From Janthinobacterium silvisoli (GTDB lineage Bacteria > Pseudomonadota > Gammaproteobacteria > Burkholderiales > Burkholderiaceae_D), in contig NZ_JACHCL010000001.1 of assembly GCF_014200725.1 (NCBI RefSeq), forward strand, positions 1,612,001-1,676,000: a stretch of DNA of 64,000 nt, in the 5' to 3' direction. Under the pieces are notes generated by a model, which had not been told where the DNA came from, made no database searches, and saw nothing but the letters and a program-made list of their open reading frames with translations. Every line of letters begins with the position of its first letter. The stretch's first letter is position 1. Below are positions 34,791 to 41,753 of the stretch, in pieces. Both the position numbers and the translations under genes were made by a program.

Positions 34791-35744
34791 TTAATGGCTG
34801 GCTGCCGCCGGCGCCGCATCGAGCAGCGAATGCTCCAGCAATTGGGACAGCGACGTACGCAGCGCCTGCGTGCGCGCCGCCAGCTCCGGCCGCTTGTAGC
34901 GTTCGGCCGCGATCAGATTGCTTTCCAGGCAGACCCGGTCCGACTTCGCCAGGCAGGCGTCGGCCGCATCGAGCTTGCGGCTGGCCTGCGCCACCTTGAT
35001 TTTCGCATCGAGTTCCAGCGTATCGGCATCATCGCCATGGCGCTTGACATAGGCGGCCAGGCGCGTGGCCGCCACGTCCCAAGTACCCGCGTCAAACGCC
35101 TGATTGACCGCTGCCAGCGCCGTCGCCCCATCCTGCTCGCGCCGCTGTTTCTTGTCACAGGCGGCGCTGGAACTGTTGATGCTGGACTGCAACTGCTTGA
35201 TCTGCGCGGCCGGCGCCCTGGCGCTTTTCAGCGTGGCCAGCGCACTGCGTGCACCGTCCAGGTCGCACTGCGCAGCCAGCGCCGTGGCCGCCGCTACCTG
35301 CTGCGCCACACTGGCTGGCTGGTCGGACGGCTTGTTGTATAGCCAGATGCCCAGCAGCGCCAGCGCCGCAACGATCCAGGTGCGCAGCCGTATCGGCGGA
35401 CGCGGCGGCGGCACGGAACGGGCCGCCTTGGCCGGCTTCGCCGCTGCCGGTGGCGGCTTGGCTGCTTGTGGAGCAGGAATGGACGGCGGCACCGGCTTCG
35501 GCAGCGGCGCCGGTCCCGGTGCATGAACCGGCGCCGGGATAGGCGTTACCGTCACAGGCGGCGGCTTGATTATCTGTACCGGCGCAGGCTCGGCCTTCGT
35601 CTCGGCCACGGCAGCTTGCCGCGTACCGCAAAACGGACAATACACCACGCGCAGCGGCAATGCCTGGCCACAAGCGACCTTGATACAACGTTCATTTACT
35701 TGTTCAAACACATTCCAACCCTGGTGACTACCTTTACTGCCCAT
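34791..35744 (-). CDS. Unknown zinc-ribbon, Pro-rich, single-TM protein
   Basis: A 317-residue protein that I do not recognise. Its N-terminus carries a C-x4-C-x10-CPFCG-TRQ ribbon (cysteines at ~20, 25, 36 and 39). A Pro/Ala-rich linker (~50-125) follows, then one membrane helix (WIVAALALLGIWLY, ~125-138) and a ~170-residue helical domain with paired-helix repeats (AAQCDLDGARSALATLKSAR; CLAKSDRVCLESNLIAAERY) that looks TPR-like. The topology would put the ribbon in the cytoplasm and the repeats in the periplasm. A GTG at 35711, after AGGG, would start just before the ribbon and is an alternative. The same ribbon spacing occurs in the gene at 36760. Confidence 0.7.
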   Translation of the reverse strand: MGSKGSHQGWNVFEQVNERCIKVACGQALPLRVVYCPFCGTRQAAVAETKAEPAPVQIIKPPPVTVTPIPAPVHAPGPAPLPKPVPPSIPAPQAAKPPPAAAKPAKAARSVPPPRPPIRLRTWIVAALALLGIWLYNKPSDQPASVAQQVAAATALAAQCDLDGARSALATLKSARAPAAQIKQLQSSINSSSAACDKKQRREQDGATALAAVNQAFDAGTWDVAATRLAAYVKRHGDDADTLELDAKIKVAQASRKLDAADACLAKSDRVCLESNLIAAERYKRPELAARTQALRTSLSQLLEHSLLDAAPAAASH

Positions 35745-35796
35745 GCCACCATGGCATGCGCGCTGTCCGCCCCCGCTGGTGCAGACAGCGCGTATC

Positions 35797-36684
35797 TTAA
35801 CGCTCTGCCTTCACCAACCCGAGGGCCCGTTCTTTTTCCAATATTACCTCACGATCACGGTTCAGCAGTTTTGCACGCGCCAGCCACTTCGCTGCGGCAC
35901 CGAGATCGTTCGATGCGGCGCTTTTTTCCGCCAGCTTGATGTAGTGATCGACGATCTTGCTTGCCAGCCCTTTGACCTCTTCGCCACGGTATTGGCCATC
36001 CGGGTCGATCTGCCGGATCTGGTCAAGCGATGCCTTGGCGGAACTTTCCGGTGGGTCCGTGTATTGCGCTTTTTCCACATACAGCGCAGCACGGCGCAAC
36101 TGGTCATCGATCTCGGCGCGGTCGTTCTCATTGAGCCTGACCGCCTTCGTATCGGCTGGCCGCACTTCCTTGGCCTGTACCGGGATAGCCGCGCTTTCTT
36201 CCTTTGCCGCTGAAGGACGCGTCGCAAAGAAGATACCGGCGCCCGCCACGGCGACCGCGACCAGCACCAGCCCCATTTGCGAACTGAGCCATTTCTTGGT
36301 GTCGGTAGAGCGCGATGCGCCGTTGGCCTTGCAAAAACTGGCCACATACTCTTCCGCCACACGCGGATCGAGGCCGACCTTCTTGCCTGGCGCCGGCGTC
36401 ACCACTTTATTCAGTGCAAGGCGCTCTTCTTTCTGATCGAGCTTTTTGTCGTTGTCGGTAAACTGATGCAGCAAGCGATCCAGCTCTTCCACCAGCGCGC
36501 GTTCGGAAACAGCCGAATATTCATCGAGCTGTTCACGGATAATCAACTCGATCTCGCGGCTCACAATACTGCGGCTAGCGCCTTCTTCCTTGATGCGCCG
36601 CTCTTCATCGCGGTCCAGATAAAAATCATCGTCCACGGCAACCGCTACGCGATTTTTCAACCATTCTTGATCAGCTTGATTCAT
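35797..36684 (-). CDS. Unknown single-TM protein sharing a domain with the 36760 gene
   Basis: A 295-residue protein of unknown function. Residues ~1-125 are acidic and helical and contain LVEELDRLLHQFTDNDKKLDQKE followed by VGLDPRVAEEYVASFCKANG, a stretch closely parallel to the C-terminal half of the 36760 protein (ELDALLHVCTDAEKKIDKKE; GMDPAIAERFITDFCRRN). A membrane helix comes next (GLVLVAVAVAGAGIFFATRP, ~135-154), then ~130 residues of helical repeats (LRRAALYVEKAQYTDPP; AAAKWLARAKLLNRDREVIL). GGGGAAG seven bases before this ATG sets the start. It lies between two zinc-ribbon genes on the same strand, apparently one operon. Confidence 0.72.
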   Translation of the reverse strand: MNQADQEWLKNRVAVAVDDDFYLDRDEERRIKEEGASRSIVSREIELIIREQLDEYSAVSERALVEELDRLLHQFTDNDKKLDQKEERLALNKVVTPAPGKKVGLDPRVAEEYVASFCKANGASRSTDTKKWLSSQMGLVLVAVAVAGAGIFFATRPSAAKEESAAIPVQAKEVRPADTKAVRLNENDRAEIDDQLRRAALYVEKAQYTDPPESSAKASLDQIRQIDPDGQYRGEEVKGLASKIVDHYIKLAEKSAASNDLGAAAKWLARAKLLNRDREVILEKERALGLVKAER

Positions 36685-36759
36685 TTCTTCCCCAGTTAAA
36701 AAGATAAAGATTGACCGGCCCAGGCCAGATCGGAATTGCATACTTTTTTATCTACGCGG

Positions 36760-37398
36760 TTACAGGACTTTCCAGCCCCACAGCCCGGAGCGTTCCCTTA
36801 CCGAATTTCTTCTGCAAAAATCTGTGATAAACCTCTCCGCAATCGCGGGATCCATGCCTTTCTTCACACCTGGCCGCGCTTTGCAGACAGTCTGTAAAGC
36901 ATCGATACGCTCCTTTTTATCGATTTTCTTTTCCGCATCGGTACAAACATGGAGTAAAGCGTCTAATTCATCGAGCAAAGCCTGTTCATTAACGGCGTGT
37001 AAGCGCTCCAATGCCATCGATAAAATCGCATGCACCCGCCGCGCATCCAGTCCCAACATGCTCTGGCCCCGGCGCAGTAACTTGGCAAAGGTCGCGCCAT
37101 CGCAATATGCGTTGGAAATGTGATCGGCAATATCACGATGAAAACTACTCAAGCTATCTTCGGAGACAGGCTCCGCTAAGGCTGCGGAGAGCTTTTTCGG
37201 CGCGCGCTCCGGCCGCCTGGTATCAAGAATATAAGGCGTCAAGGTCGGCTCCTGCTTCATTGGCAATACGGGAGGAACCGTGATTTTCACCGTCATGGTT
37301 GTTTGTCTCGCACCACAAAAGGGGCAAAATTTGACGATGCATGGCAATACCAACAGGCATTCGGACTCCTGGCACTGATATTCAATTTCCTGATTCAC
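36760..37398 (-). CDS. Unknown zinc-ribbon protein with shared helical domain
   Basis: A 212-residue protein. It starts MNQEIEYQCQESEC and has a C-x4-C-x10-CPFCG-ARQ ribbon with the same spacing as the 34791 protein. After a linker comes a domain (~110-200) paralogous to the N-terminal part of the 35797 protein, with conserved ELDxLLH, KKxDxKE, PGxKxGxDPxxAE and FCxxN. It ends (SGLWGWKVL) just where the paralogue's membrane helix begins, so this one is soluble or was shortened. The GTG at 37398 is chosen because the only upstream in-frame start is a TTG. It is the first gene of the three, facing the AT-rich divergent region. Confidence 0.68.
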   Translation of the reverse strand: MNQEIEYQCQESECLLVLPCIVKFCPFCGARQTTMTVKITVPPVLPMKQEPTLTPYILDTRRPERAPKKLSAALAEPVSEDSLSSFHRDIADHISNAYCDGATFAKLLRRGQSMLGLDARRVHAILSMALERLHAVNEQALLDELDALLHVCTDAEKKIDKKERIDALQTVCKARPGVKKGMDPAIAERFITDFCRRNSVRERSGLWGWKVL

Positions 37399-37700
37399 AA
37401 AGACACCTTGATATACGCATGCATGCCAACTTCCAAAAAACAATAGGACACGATTTAAATATTGCGAACAAACACTTTAAATTATCATTCGAATAATAAC
37501 TCATCTCTGCTTGACTAGTATTTTTTATCTTGATCCTAGAAATTTCGCTGCCTTTCATCAGCGATTTAATCGATGAATTTATCTCTGCAGATTGCAAAGC
37601 AACGGGAACACTGCATTTGATCTCGATCAAACGCCCCAAGACAGCGCGTCCTAAGCTGAATCACCGCAGCACACGCGGCGGCGCAGACGAGGAGGATGCC
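37399..37700. other. 302-base AT-rich divergent promoter region
   Basis: Between the zinc-ribbon operon (minus) and the beta-rich pair (plus). The left two-thirds is distinctly AT-rich; the right third returns to normal composition. It holds an exact FNR/Anr box at 37617-37630, and GAGGAGG (37689-37695) as the ribosome site of the plus-strand gene. A plus-strand frame stays open through the right half but has no initiation signal. Confidence 0.6.
37617..37630 (+). promoter_or_regulatory. Exact FNR/Anr box
   Basis: TTGAT-CTCG-ATCAA matches the FNR/Anr consensus TTGAT-N4-ATCAA at every fixed position and extends to a 7-bp repeat (TTTGATC..GATCAAA, 37616-37631). Its centre is 41.5 bases before ~37665, where TAAGCT (37652-37657) sits at the -10 place, the class II activator geometry. 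Function is inferred. Confidence 0.65.
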
Positions 37701-38555
37701 ATGTCAGCCCACCTGATCATTGAAGACGGCCAGCCCTGGTGGTGGGATAGCGCCGATATCTGGGTCGTGCCCGGCAACGATCCGAATGGTCCGCCCGGCG
37801 CGCCCGTGGCCGGCAGCAGCAATTACCTATGGGGCCGCGTGCACAACACGGGCAGTAGCGCGTCCAATGGCGTGCGCGTGGATTTTTACTGGGCCGATCC
37901 CTCCGGGCTGATCGCCGTTGGCGCCGCCACCGCGATCGGTTCCGCGTTTGCCGACCTGGCGCCCGGCGCCACGCAGGAAGTGCTGTGCCTGGTGCCCTGG
38001 TTCCCCGTCATCGTCAATGGCGGCCACGAATGCCTGCTGGCCGTGGCCCATGGGGCGGGCGATATCAATCCCTTGCCCGAGCCGCTGCCGAACGGCTTTC
38101 TGTTCCAGCCCCAGCAGCATGAACAGATCGCCCAGCGCAATGTCCAGGTGGTGCAGGCGGCGCGGCGCGCGCAGATGCTGTCCATCACGGTTGCTGCCCT
38201 GGCCCGCCAGGCCAGAAAAGTGGAATTGCACCTGGAGCGCGGCGGCGAATTGGCGGCACGTTTGCTGGCCACGCTGGGGCTGGAAAAATGGCAGCCGGCA
38301 AAAGAGGCGTCCATCAGCGCAGGTTTGAGCCACGAACCCCACTGCAATGACGGCACGGCGGAAGAACAGACACTGGCGCTCGACGTGCCGCGCGGCCAGG
38401 CCGTGGCCGTCTACCTGAGCCTGCGTGCCAACAAGCTGCCGCCCTATCAATATGCGCTGCTGCGCGTACTGGAAACACAGGATGGCAAGGTCATGGGCGG
38501 TAATACTTACCTGATCGTCGGCAGCGAGGACGGTCGTGAGGAGCAAACATCATGA
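37701..38555 (+). CDS. Unknown protein with CARDB/Ig-like N-terminal domain
   Basis: A 284-residue protein without signal peptide or membrane helix. Residues ~10-110 look like a CARDB-type Ig fold: WWWDSADIWVVPGNDPNG, NYLWGRVHNTGSSASNGVRV, VDFYWADPSG, LAPGATQEVLCLVPW. The C-terminal half (~130-284) is mixed alpha/beta with no similarity I recognise (VELHLERGGELAARLLATLG; LDVPRGQAVAVYLSLRANKL). Strong GAGGAGG precedes the ATG. It overlaps the next gene by four bases (ATGA), so the products probably act together. The FNR box lies upstream. Function unknown. Confidence 0.72.
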   Translation: MSAHLIIEDGQPWWWDSADIWVVPGNDPNGPPGAPVAGSSNYLWGRVHNTGSSASNGVRVDFYWADPSGLIAVGAATAIGSAFADLAPGATQEVLCLVPWFPVIVNGGHECLLAVAHGAGDINPLPEPLPNGFLFQPQQHEQIAQRNVQVVQAARRAQMLSITVAALARQARKVELHLERGGELAARLLATLGLEKWQPAKEASISAGLSHEPHCNDGTAEEQTLALDVPRGQAVAVYLSLRANKLPPYQYALLRVLETQDGKVMGGNTYLIVGSEDGREEQTS

Positions 38556-40066
38556 GCGACACGCCCATGCAAGTCTTGACGCGGCCGTTCGCGATCGAGC
38601 CCGTCACCAATATCATGCTGCCCGATGGCGTGTTCGACAACGCCATCTACGGCTTGCGCATCGCCGCCCACGTAACGAATATGTCGGGCAGCGCACTGAA
38701 CAATGTGACCGTCTACCTGGAAAGCGTGGGCGACCCCGGCATCGTCCCCGTGGCGCGCACCTTCTTTTTTGCCAGCGTGCCGGCCGGCGCCGCCATGCTG
38801 GTCATGTGGGATGCCGACTTCCAGCACGCCGCACCGGGCAAGCGCCTGGTCAGCTTTGTCGCCAAGGCCGATGGCTACACGGCGCGCCGCTCGATCCAGC
38901 AAATCTTCGTCTCGCAGACGCGTTTTAGCAGCGCCACCAACACCTACACTTGCACGGTCGAGGAAGGCACCCTGGAACTGTCCAAGCCGCAAGGCCACCT
39001 GCCCGGCAAGCGCTGGGGCAGCACGGGCGCTGGCGGCGAGGGCAGCGACAAGGATTGCCGCTGTCCGCCGCAATGGGGACCAATTGTGCCCACCGGCATG
39101 ACCCTCGTCTGGACGCCGAATCCCGCCTATGCGGGAACTCACGGGGAACTGCCATTTTCCGATCCCTGGTGGAAGATACTGGCCATCATCATCGCCCTGA
39201 TCGCCGCGCTGGTGGCCATCATTGCAGCAGCCCTGGGCGCAGGCAAAGCCAGTTTCAGCGTGGGCGGCACGTTTGAGGAAACCGACCCCAGCGTGCATTG
39301 CTGCACACCCAAGGGCGCAGCGTCGGGAAAGCCCGAATTCACGGTGGCGGGCGTGGCCTCGGCCATCGCCTCGGGCGCCATCGTGGCGGCCTGCTCCGAC
39401 GTGGCCGACCCGTTCTGGCGCGGCCAGGAAGCCACGCCGCCCGCCCCCGGCGAACTGACCCTGGGCGAAAGAGTGGTGGCGCAATGGGTGTTGCCCGAAG
39501 CGCCGAATGCAGGCCAGCCCTATACGGCCGACATCCGCTGGCAATACGACCGTTTCACGACCGGCGCCAGTTACCACCATGCCGTGAGCGAAACGCAAGT
39601 CAATGTGCATGTGGCTGGCCCGGTGGAAACGGATACGCCCGACGTGGTGCAGGCGTTCGAACCGCTGTGGGTACGCACCAGCTTCCGGCGCGACAATGGC
39701 GACCTCTTCCGTGGCAACGAACTGTATGCCTTCGTGCTGTTCCAGGCGCCGCAGGGCCTGTATTTCGTGGAAACACTGACCGATGACGGCCTGGCCTACG
39801 ATCCCAGCGCCAATGATGGCGTGTATGCGGCCAGCCTGAATCTGAAACTGGCGTATCGGCAGTTGCTGCAATATGGGCAAGATGTGTATGGCACCTGGCG
39901 CGTGTTCGTGTTCGCGCAAGATGTCAACCTGACCAAGCCGGGCACGCCGCCGGAAATCGCCGCCCAGCATATCGGCGGCATGTTCATCGCCAGCGCCATC
40001 GAGATCACTTTCGACGACAGCCTGCCGTGCCCGCTCAAGGCGCAGGCCAGCATCCTGGTGGTGTAG
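38552..40066 (+). CDS. Unknown beta-rich protein with central hydrophobic segment
   Basis: A 504-residue protein that I do not recognise. The N-terminal ~130 residues look Ig-like (YGLRIAAHVTNMSGSALNNV). A Cys-containing Gly-rich stretch (DKDCRCPPQW) precedes a hydrophobic segment (WWKILAIIIALIAALVAIIA, ~209-228) long enough for one or two membrane passes; a CC pair (VHCCTPKG) and a second mildly hydrophobic stretch follow. The C-terminal ~130 residues form a beta module with LTDDGLAYDPSANDGVYAAS, as found in extracellular Ig-like domains. There is no N-terminal signal peptide, which is odd for such folds. It starts in an ATGA overlap with the upstream gene. Confidence 0.7.
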   Translation: MSDTPMQVLTRPFAIEPVTNIMLPDGVFDNAIYGLRIAAHVTNMSGSALNNVTVYLESVGDPGIVPVARTFFFASVPAGAAMLVMWDADFQHAAPGKRLVSFVAKADGYTARRSIQQIFVSQTRFSSATNTYTCTVEEGTLELSKPQGHLPGKRWGSTGAGGEGSDKDCRCPPQWGPIVPTGMTLVWTPNPAYAGTHGELPFSDPWWKILAIIIALIAALVAIIAAALGAGKASFSVGGTFEETDPSVHCCTPKGAASGKPEFTVAGVASAIASGAIVAACSDVADPFWRGQEATPPAPGELTLGERVVAQWVLPEAPNAGQPYTADIRWQYDRFTTGASYHHAVSETQVNVHVAGPVETDTPDVVQAFEPLWVRTSFRRDNGDLFRGNELYAFVLFQAPQGLYFVETLTDDGLAYDPSANDGVYAASLNLKLAYRQLLQYGQDVYGTWRVFVFAQDVNLTKPGTPPEIAAQHIGGMFIASAIEITFDDSLPCPLKAQASILVV

Positions 40067-40085
40067 GAAAGGTAAGGAAGAAAAA

Positions 40086-40532
40086 CTAGACTTTGACGCT
40101 GTCGACTTTCGGCATCACCGTGCGCGGCACGATCTCGTTTTCCGGGCAAGACCCGAGTGCGTCGGAGTAGCTGAGCCAGCGCTTCAGGCTATCCATGCGG
40201 CGGATGGTGATGCCCTTGCCGTTGATGTAGCCGATCTGTTCAAAATGGACAGGGCTGGTAGTCAGCTTGGACACGGTGGGCGCGTTGCCGATCAGCCTGT
40301 CATAGGCCTTGCGCGCCTTGTGTTCCCATTTGGCCAGCACCGGGTCATCGAAGCGGTTGCTTTCAAAGTAGACGGTAATGGTCCGGTCATGATTGGCGAA
40401 GCCGACGATGGCCGCGCCCTTGCGTATGGCCAGCAAGACATCTTCCTTGACGCCCGTGACAGGCACGAACACGGCTGCGCGTCCGTCCGCATCGGGACGC
40501 TCCATGGGGATATCTTGTCCAATTATGCTCAT
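40086..40532 (-). CDS. Hypothetical protein
   Basis: A 148-residue soluble protein with no recognised family. It has an alpha/beta pattern (AAVFVPVTGVKEDVLLAIRK; GAAIVGFANHDRTITVYFES; AKWEHKARKAYDRLIGN) and ends in a Val/Lys-rich tail. No signal peptide or membrane segment is visible. The ATG lacks a clear ribosome site; a second in-frame ATG ten codons in is possible. It is convergent with the beta-rich pair and divergent from the M29-like gene, and coding bias is like its neighbours. It may belong to the surrounding unknown cluster, on position only. Confidence 0.6.
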   Translation of the reverse strand: MSIIGQDIPMERPDADGRAAVFVPVTGVKEDVLLAIRKGAAIVGFANHDRTITVYFESNRFDDPVLAKWEHKARKAYDRLIGNAPTVSKLTTSPVHFEQIGYINGKGITIRRMDSLKRWLSYSDALGSCPENEIVPRTVMPKVDSVKV

Positions 40533-40688
40533 TGCATCACACTCAGCCTGGTTTTATTATTGATGTCTCAATAGATGCACCAATAATACATTGCTCAAAA
40601 GCACTATACAAGACCGTCCGGCATCTGCTGGCCAGTTGGCGTCTGCACTTATAATGCGTGTTGACTATTTGCAGACAACAGCTTCCCC

Positions 40689-41753
40689 ATGACGCCCCAA
40701 GATCAAGACAGCAGCACCGACACCAGCCGCCTCGACGCCATCAGCGCCGCCGCCACCGAAGTGGCTGCGCAAAATGTGGCAGACACCTTGGCGATGGCCA
40801 TTTGCCACCGGCCCGACGAGCCGGCGCTGGTCGTCTGCGACAAGCGCAGTTGGCTCAATGTGGTGCTGACCGAAGCGTATCGTCTGGCCTTGCCGGACGC
40901 CACCTTCATCGATTTCGACGACGTCACGCCGGAAGCCGTGCTGGCCGCGTTTGCCGCACTGCCGGCCGGCAGCCTGGTCGTGCTGATACAGTCGACCAGC
41001 TTCCGCCTGGAAGCCTTCCGCATCCGCATCGAGCTGTTCAAGCGGGGTTTGAAAGTAATCGAACACGTACACCTGTCGCGCATGCCCGGCGTGCAAGGCT
41101 TGCACTACATCGCCTCGCTGGCGTATGACCCCGCTTATTACCGCGGCGTGGGCCATGCCTTGAAACAGCGTATCGACCGCGCCCGCCATGGCATGGTCGA
41201 CAGTGGCGGCGAGCAACTGGTCTTCGCCTCGCCCTTTGAAAGCGCCAAGCTCAATATCGGCGACTACAGCGGCATGAACAATATCGGCGGCCAGTTCCCG
41301 CTGGGCGAAGTGTTTACGGAGGCGCAAGACCTGGAAGCGGTCAATGGCCGCGTGCGCATCTTTGTTTTCGGCGATACCAAATTCATGGTCAACCGTCCCG
41401 ACACGCCAATCACCCTGATCATCGAAAAAGGCAGGGTCACAGGCACCGAACACGCCACGCCGGAATTCCTGGAAATGCTGGAAATCATCCGCGCCCACGA
41501 AGGCGAAGTCTGGGTGCGCGAACTGGGCTTCGGCATGAACCGCGCATTTTCGCGCGAGCAGATGGTCAACGATATCGGCACCTATGAACGCATGTGCGGC
41601 ATCCATCTGTCGCTGGGCGCCAAGCACGGCGTATATGCCAAGCCCCAGTTCAAGCGCAAGGATGCGCGCTACCACGTCGACATCTTCGCCGTAACGCAAG
41701 CTGTGTATCTCGACGACGAACGGGTCTACCAGGATGGCAGCTGGCAAGTGTAA
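40689..41753 (+). CDS. M29-like metallopeptidase (aminopeptidase T family fold)
   Basis: A 354-residue protein resembling the C-terminal catalytic half of M29 aminopeptidases. All five expected metal ligands can be placed: Glu207 (LGEVFT), Glu278 (VRELGFG), His306 (GIHLSLG), His329 and Asp331 (YHVDIF). Spacings 71, 28, 23 and 2 compare with about 66, 29, 31 and 2 in M29 (E250, E316, H345, H376, D378, quoted from memory). The N-terminal half (LVVLIQSTSFRLEAFRIRIE; MPGVQGLHYIASLAYDPAYY) is less clear. It is cytoplasmic, with no signal peptide. Peptidase activity is inference; the N-terminal difference may mean another substrate. Neighbours are the unknown 148-residue gene and a chemoreceptor. 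Confidence 0.72.
   Translation: MTPQDQDSSTDTSRLDAISAAATEVAAQNVADTLAMAICHRPDEPALVVCDKRSWLNVVLTEAYRLALPDATFIDFDDVTPEAVLAAFAALPAGSLVVLIQSTSFRLEAFRIRIELFKRGLKVIEHVHLSRMPGVQGLHYIASLAYDPAYYRGVGHALKQRIDRARHGMVDSGGEQLVFASPFESAKLNIGDYSGMNNIGGQFPLGEVFTEAQDLEAVNGRVRIFVFGDTKFMVNRPDTPITLIIEKGRVTGTEHATPEFLEMLEIIRAHEGEVWVRELGFGMNRAFSREQMVNDIGTYERMCGIHLSLGAKHGVYAKPQFKRKDARYHVDIFAVTQAVYLDDERVYQDGSWQV

Follow-up and report, generated by a model that had tools for sequence, protein, structure and literature searches.

FtsZl1 (Tubulin_2, PF13809) operons, for which a membrane remodelling complex has been proposed (Makarova and Koonin 2010, PMC2875224), are the closest described counterpart of one gene in a seven-gene locus at positions 34791-41753 of a 64,000-nucleotide stretch of Janthinobacterium silvisoli DNA (hereafter, the window). 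Two described domain types, CARDB (PF07705) with the accessory regions of subtilases, and choice-of-anchor X (NF041940), offer comparisons for two others. We name the genes A to G in order. All seven open reading frames claimed in an earlier note, which was made from the letters of this stretch, were found. We consider it highly probable that the locus is a composite of four units, namely A, a B-C insert, a mobile D-E module and the residents F-G, with D-E as a putative envelope pair. The features are as follows:

A: 34791..35744, minus strand; open reading frame with zinc ribbon, proline-rich linker, short borderline transmembrane (TM) segment and a helical part with conserved cysteines
B: 35797..36684, minus strand; open reading frame with C-type helical domain, TM at 133-158 and a highly conserved C-terminal helical part; accessory
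C: 36760..37398, minus strand; open reading frame with A-like zinc ribbon fused to a B-type helical domain; accessory
FNR/ANR box TTGATctcgATCAA: 37617..37630, plus strand; upstream of D
-10-like element TAAGCT: 37652..37657, plus strand; ~28 bp from the FNR box centre
D: 37701..38555, plus strand; weakly CARDB-like N-terminal domain and a C-terminal part without assignment
E: 38552..40066, plus strand; Ig-like-looking N-terminal part (by eye), hydrophobic hairpin and a C-terminal part with a choice_anch_X motif
E hydrophobic hairpin: 39155..39397, plus strand; residues 202-238 and 262-282, with an invariant CC in the loop
F: 40086..40532, minus strand; conserved local gene, no family assigned
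G: 40689..41753, plus strand; core gene, no family assigned

Searches of Pfam, NCBIfam and PADLOC with the seven proteins at E up to 1 gave weak matches only, bar a short choice_anch_X match in E. The earlier statement that the genes belong to no assignable system holds for these collections, but not for A, which can be assigned through its orthologs. A known antiphage defence system was rejected (0/7 proteins match PADLOC at E up to 1).

Orthologs of A stand directly after the PF13809 gene, in an operon with ribbon, TM, small TM and weakly glycine-zipper-like proteins. The operon's TM protein may correspond to the vWA protein of the paper, although neither Pfam nor PDB searches confirmed a vWA domain. 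The window locus differs in that it lacks the tubulin and the other subunits, and in that its A lacks the C-terminal ~100 residues. A is homologous to the ribbon/TM protein of Tubulin_2 operons (E about 1e-31 to 1e-39), and it aligns with the proteins adjoining PF13809 genes in three loci (L127, L125, L131; L and G codes denote our loci and genomes) at 38-53% identity over 175-192 aa, and has the ribbon in common with them besides. The ribbon cysteines (C20, C25, C36, C39) are invariant in 10/10 aligned A relatives, and the same alignment keeps C160, C196, C264 and C272; the membrane segment is borderline (Kyte-Doolittle maximum 1.52). The last ~100 residues are absent from seven of the ten aligned relatives, which come from genomes without the operon at this locus.

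We compared 40 Janthinobacterium-genus genomes, in which G000 is the genome of the window. A is present in 37/40; the three without a find are G023 and two whose genomes are incomplete, G014 and G027. In G016, G028 and G022 the A ortholog is the gene directly after the Tubulin_2 gene (E 8e-49 for the PF13809 match in G016); G034 has the same order, as does G001 up to the end of its contig. The locus of G016 reads E, D, then divergently a 514-aa ribbon protein, a 502-aa TM protein, a 155-aa TM protein, Tubulin_2 (1217 aa), the A ortholog (442 aa), a weakly glycine-zipper-like protein, one unprofiled gene, LP and GGDEF. Operon loci and the window have flanking LP/GGDEF or F/G genes in common: LP and GGDEF flank A in the window too, and in G028 and G001 the operon adjoins F and G, without D-E. 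The Massilia/Pseudoduganella operon adjoins D-E, its A end lying outside our view. No PF13809 gene stands beside A in the window; G000 has a single match, which lies on a different contig (C5) in a diverged second operon of Tubulin_2 type. On a G+F nucleotide tree (39 tips, Massilia/Pseudoduganella as outgroup) the operon is found in the outgroup and in the early-branching G001, G028 and G016, and is absent from 32 crown genomes and G023; support for G016 plus crown is 1.0.

To judge by homology and gene order, A is an orphaned, C-terminally shortened ortholog of the zinc-ribbon/membrane protein of the Tubulin_2/FtsZl1 operon, which is evidently lost from the window locus in crown Janthinobacterium, leaving A over. 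Six comparisons gave omega values of 0.21-0.36 for A, a sign of purifying selection, which suggests that an FtsZl1-operon subunit can outlive its tubulin under selection. Its predicted topology is that of a leftover membrane anchor, which would have a cytoplasmic zinc ribbon, a Pro-rich tether, one membrane helix and an outer helical part; the lone A offers a handle on what the membrane anchor of the FtsZl1 complex does by itself. We also noted a Cache-domain protein (sCache_2, E 2e-9) between the Tubulin_2 operon and D in a Massilia locus (L080, 6221-6796), and small genes resembling it in placement in G028 and G001.

The D-E pair has a different distribution. A public genome collection was scanned with a pair of short peptide patterns, which would overlook relatives at a greater distance. 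The scan yielded 28 loci: Janthinobacterium 15, Massilia 2, Pseudoduganella 1, Chromobacterium 2, a Burkholderiales metagenome-assembled genome (MAG) 1, Paracoccus 1, a Chloroflexi MAG 1 and Micromonosporaceae 5. In all 28, D immediately precedes E, and a 4-bp overlap between them is seen in 12 of the 13 loci outside Janthinobacterium, as it is in the window, where the E start overlaps the D stop. A profile search of 296 genomes from the phylum of the Micromonospora locus recovered that genome and one more (57% identity), in which an overlapping D again stands beside E. The pair is rare, since a sample of 398 genomes from the window's own phylum contained it in the window's genome only; among 145 genomes of the family, full-length D occurred only in eight genus genomes, all of which also carry E. 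E identity is 59-97% across relatives (83-97% in same-genus genomes, 57-77% outside Janthinobacterium), with omega values of 0.06 and 0.13 in two comparisons pointing to purifying selection.

Within the genus set, an intact D-E pair is present in 27/40 genomes. Its locus was examined in 38 of them (the other two, G014 and G027, gave no match to E when the genus was searched); G199 was scored at its locus only, and G003 retains just a fragment of E. That fragment (L054, 7674-7826) is a 56-residue E match beside an intact-looking A, and suggests decay of the pair. In basal G016 a 696-aa MORN_2-repeat protein (E 3e-14; L045, 4986-7076) lies between E and F. Ten D-E neighbours, out of many more, were scanned outside Oxalobacteraceae and have no common theme: DUF2076, a transposase, a Zip transporter, an oxidoreductase with a VTT domain, TSP3 repeats, a GDSL lipase, pentapeptide repeats and three without match. 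Tubulin_2 was ruled out as a requirement of D-E, as no match was found in ten of the 13 outside genomes that carry the pair (those beyond Massilia/Pseudoduganella, drafts and MAGs included). Carriage by plasmids or phages was likewise rejected: E has no match in either and D none in plasmids, D not having been tried in phages. A literature search returned no paper recognisable as being about D-E. On this distribution, D-E is a self-contained and, as its phyletic scatter indicates, horizontally spread two-gene module.

The earlier note had also placed an FNR box upstream of the pair. The sequence TTGATctcgATCAA at 37617-37630 is indeed the only perfect match to TTGATN4ATCAA in 64 kb. All 26 crown genomes with D-E have the box upstream of D, with no mismatch in 18 and one mismatch in eight, and it occurs with one mismatch in 3/3 Massilia/Pseudoduganella loci. 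Six crown genomes lack an intact D-E; the box survives in one of them (G036) and is gone from five while A stays; the box thus goes with D-E, not with A. In G036 the perfect box stands between A and F, with D-E absent (L140, 6217-6230), and resembles the scar of a D-E deletion. Half-site conservation across 25 aligned upstream regions (G020 left out) is 97%, compared with 82% for the spacer and 67% for the flanks; the half-site figure is overstated because best agreement with the consensus decided where each box was placed. Fairer controls are the window-wide count, in which 0-1 mismatch was found at three positions out of about 64,000, and the unchanging distance to a second element: TAAGCT is found in 27 of the 28 upstream regions compared (TAATCT in G009), and where the interval was counted by eye it is 20-21 nt from the box.

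The distance from box centre to the -10-like element is near class II FNR spacing, and from the two elements we predict a class II-type promoter for D. The genome of the window carries an FNR gene that exceeds its curated cut-off and has a Cx2Cx5C motif, which is the Fe-S cysteine pattern of FNR. D-E is therefore probably under FNR control, as far as sequence elements can tell, and this points to a growth condition in which to look for the pair. A second FNR-like palindrome recurs where a gene that by eye is LysR-like begins its coding sequence (L040 12360, L047 14091, L146 11394 and similar places). We rejected it as a second conserved regulatory site: it overlaps the start codon, ATGGATCAA reads MDQ, and the likeness is probably a coding coincidence.

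For the minus-strand genes the earlier note had described a family of three with a ribbon-TM-helical layout. Two of its observations are borne out: the ribbon C-x4-C-x10-CPFCG is exact in both A and C, and the helical domains of B and C are homologous (29-30% identity, with tblastn matches in both directions). They do not make one family, as A groups with the tubulin-operon proteins and B and C with each other. The full layout is seen only in A, with its borderline TM; B has a TM at 133-158 and no ribbon, and C, for which a GTG start at 37398 was assumed, has the ribbon but no TM that we could find.

B matches occur in 5/40 genus genomes, with C beside B in all five, and the five carriers occupy five separate places on the G+F tree (node supports there not examined). 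G+C content at third codon positions (GC3) is 0.45-0.64 for B-C vs 0.74-0.89 for A, D, E, F and G, and the proportion of synonymous differences (pS) of B-C exceeds that of the same five genes in nine of ten genome pairs, G026-G007 being the exception. The B protein is nevertheless highly conserved between genomes: the window copy differs from the other four by a pS of 0.72-0.77 vs a proportion of nonsynonymous differences (pN) of 0.07-0.10. The only place beyond the genus where we saw the domain is an Azospirillum ramasamyi plasmid (C relative WP_111068037.1, 38% over 129 aa), next to genes annotated as StiP-family protease, phosphoribosyltransferase and HpcH/HpaI; in the 398-genome phylum sample, the 397 genomes other than the window's own had no relative. 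Because the pair is confined to five scattered genomes of 40, with low GC3 and raised pS, we conclude that B-C is, by these marks, a later and horizontally acquired insert between A and D. On the plasmid, the relative (L134, 7926-8393) follows the StiP/phosphoribosyltransferase/HpcH gene run, a context that we take to be reminiscent of Ter-type stress operons.

The earlier note had proposed a membrane-linked sensing or assembly system in which both arms take part. The membrane-associated character of A, B and E stands; the joint action of the arms is not supported by gene neighbourhoods, which largely turn out as the note had said would refute it. Ten of the 37 A-carrying genus genomes lack an intact D-E, no A was detected beside D-E in any of the ten loci outside Janthinobacterium, Massilia and Pseudoduganella, and B-C is confined to its few carriers. 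It is because of this distribution that a single membrane-linked system of A, B, C and D-E, switched from their shared intergenic region, fails as an explanation, and we regard it as very unlikely, even though the single divergent intergenic region holds the FNR box and B-C is only ever found between A and D (5/5); the loss of the box from five crown genomes that retain A also speaks against it.

Several observations nonetheless weigh against the composite that we prefer. A and D-E are adjacent in 26/26 crown genomes having the pair, a point for a single system, and with an operon divergent to D-E elsewhere this makes a lineage-specific link conceivable. No box was seen in G016 or in the loci tested from Chromobacterium, Paracoccus, the Chloroflexi and Burkholderiales MAGs and Micromonosporaceae (two loci). 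Support for the crown alone is only 0.56, so that one or two operon losses are possible; G023 has neither operon nor A. The raised pS of B-C may partly reflect low GC3, and one genome pair shows no rise. Finally, D-E is divergent from the Tubulin_2 operon in 3/3 Massilia/Pseudoduganella loci and in G016. The last arrangement would also suit a Tubulin_2/FtsZl1 membrane complex that includes both A and D-E, with D-E as a new optional subunit and A serving a second, paralogous operon, for which the operon of this kind at G000:C5 is a candidate. We hold this to be unlikely, given the ten outside D-E genomes without a Tubulin_2 match and the four genus genomes (G001, G028, G022, G034) in which the operon is present and an E match absent.

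Returning to the composite, the protein features of D and E suggest what its mobile module may do. D was described in the earlier note as Ig/CARDB-like, in agreement with CARDB matches in 15/21 members (best E 7.4e-4); the window D falls under the Pfam gathering cut-off (13.9 vs 22.7 bits) and differs from CARDB accessory regions in being stand-alone and coupled to E. E carries the hydrophobic hairpin, both segments being kept in 21/21 sequences (threshold 1.3) and C250 C251 in the loop between them being invariant. Residues 408-430 of E exceed the curated NCBIfam cut-off for choice_anch_X (27.7 vs 25 bits), but the match covers only 23 of 37 profile positions, and no credible family match was obtained for the remainder of E, its hairpin among it. 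Solved-structure searches gave nothing for E and one match at E 0.096 for D. As had been claimed, nothing resembling a signal peptide is evident by eye at the start of either protein in the window.

Tat-type signals (SRRDIIR/SRRDLIR) are, on the other hand, found on D in 5/5 Micromonosporaceae loci, with none evident on E and none seen at the start of the window's D. D-E could accordingly be export-related or contact-dependent, with D exported (by Tat in actinobacteria) carrying E, and the hairpin inserting into membranes outside the producing cytoplasm. The hairpin is strongly hydrophobic; of three large Oxalobacteraceae proteins with D-like matches that were compared, two (L051 and L052, not L050) have a region resembling D after their S8 protease domain, and in the Chloroflexi locus D would gain a hydrophobic stretch from a possible in-frame start further upstream. 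We find an export role doubtful all the same: no Tat-type signal is seen in the further actinobacterial genome, D has no upstream in-frame start codon in 7/7 proteobacterial loci outside Janthinobacterium, and the ten neighbours scanned include no toxin- or immunity-like gene.

For the D-E pair as an envelope device, we propose the following. Oxygen limitation would let FNR activate the class II-type promoter, and D and E would be made together through translational coupling at their 4-bp overlap. E would anchor in the inner membrane via its hairpin, displaying its Ig-like domains, and D, being CARDB-like, would be its soluble partner; the pair would then act as an envelope binding or scaffold complex, for which the binding of D to E, the side of the membrane on which it acts and the nature of any ligand are likewise predictions. 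We tentatively suggest, as a possibility somewhat short of even, that D-E represents a previously undescribed, phylum-crossing two-protein envelope device, oxygen-responsive in Oxalobacteraceae, whose two members, an Ig-like protein anchored by its hairpin and a CARDB-like partner, would form a complex of their own without fixed accessory genes and have spread horizontally among Pseudomonadota, Actinomycetota and Chloroflexota. The seven-gene 'unknown cluster' is now resolved into four testable units, and since partners and order of D-E are kept across phyla, expression of the two genes can test the module.

G, at the far end of the locus, had been labelled an M29-like peptidase. We rejected Peptidase M29, for which neither Pfam nor NCBIfam gave a match at E up to 1, and the PDB search gave no credible match (an unrelated oxidase came best, at E 0.41). 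Residues E278, H306, H329 and D331 do have an M29-like spacing, a resemblance without profile support. G is present in 39/40 genus genomes, F stands beside it in loci holding G, with or without D-E, and F retains 64% identity in the three Massilia/Pseudoduganella loci. F-G is a conserved resident local pair. At the other end, the interval between LP and A is a variable site among genomes: three loci (L041 2066-5630, L042 1983-5601, L040 2374-5991) have about 4 kb there, absent from the window, with two extra genes, one of 434-452 aa that looks lipoprotein-like by eye and one of 708-745 aa.

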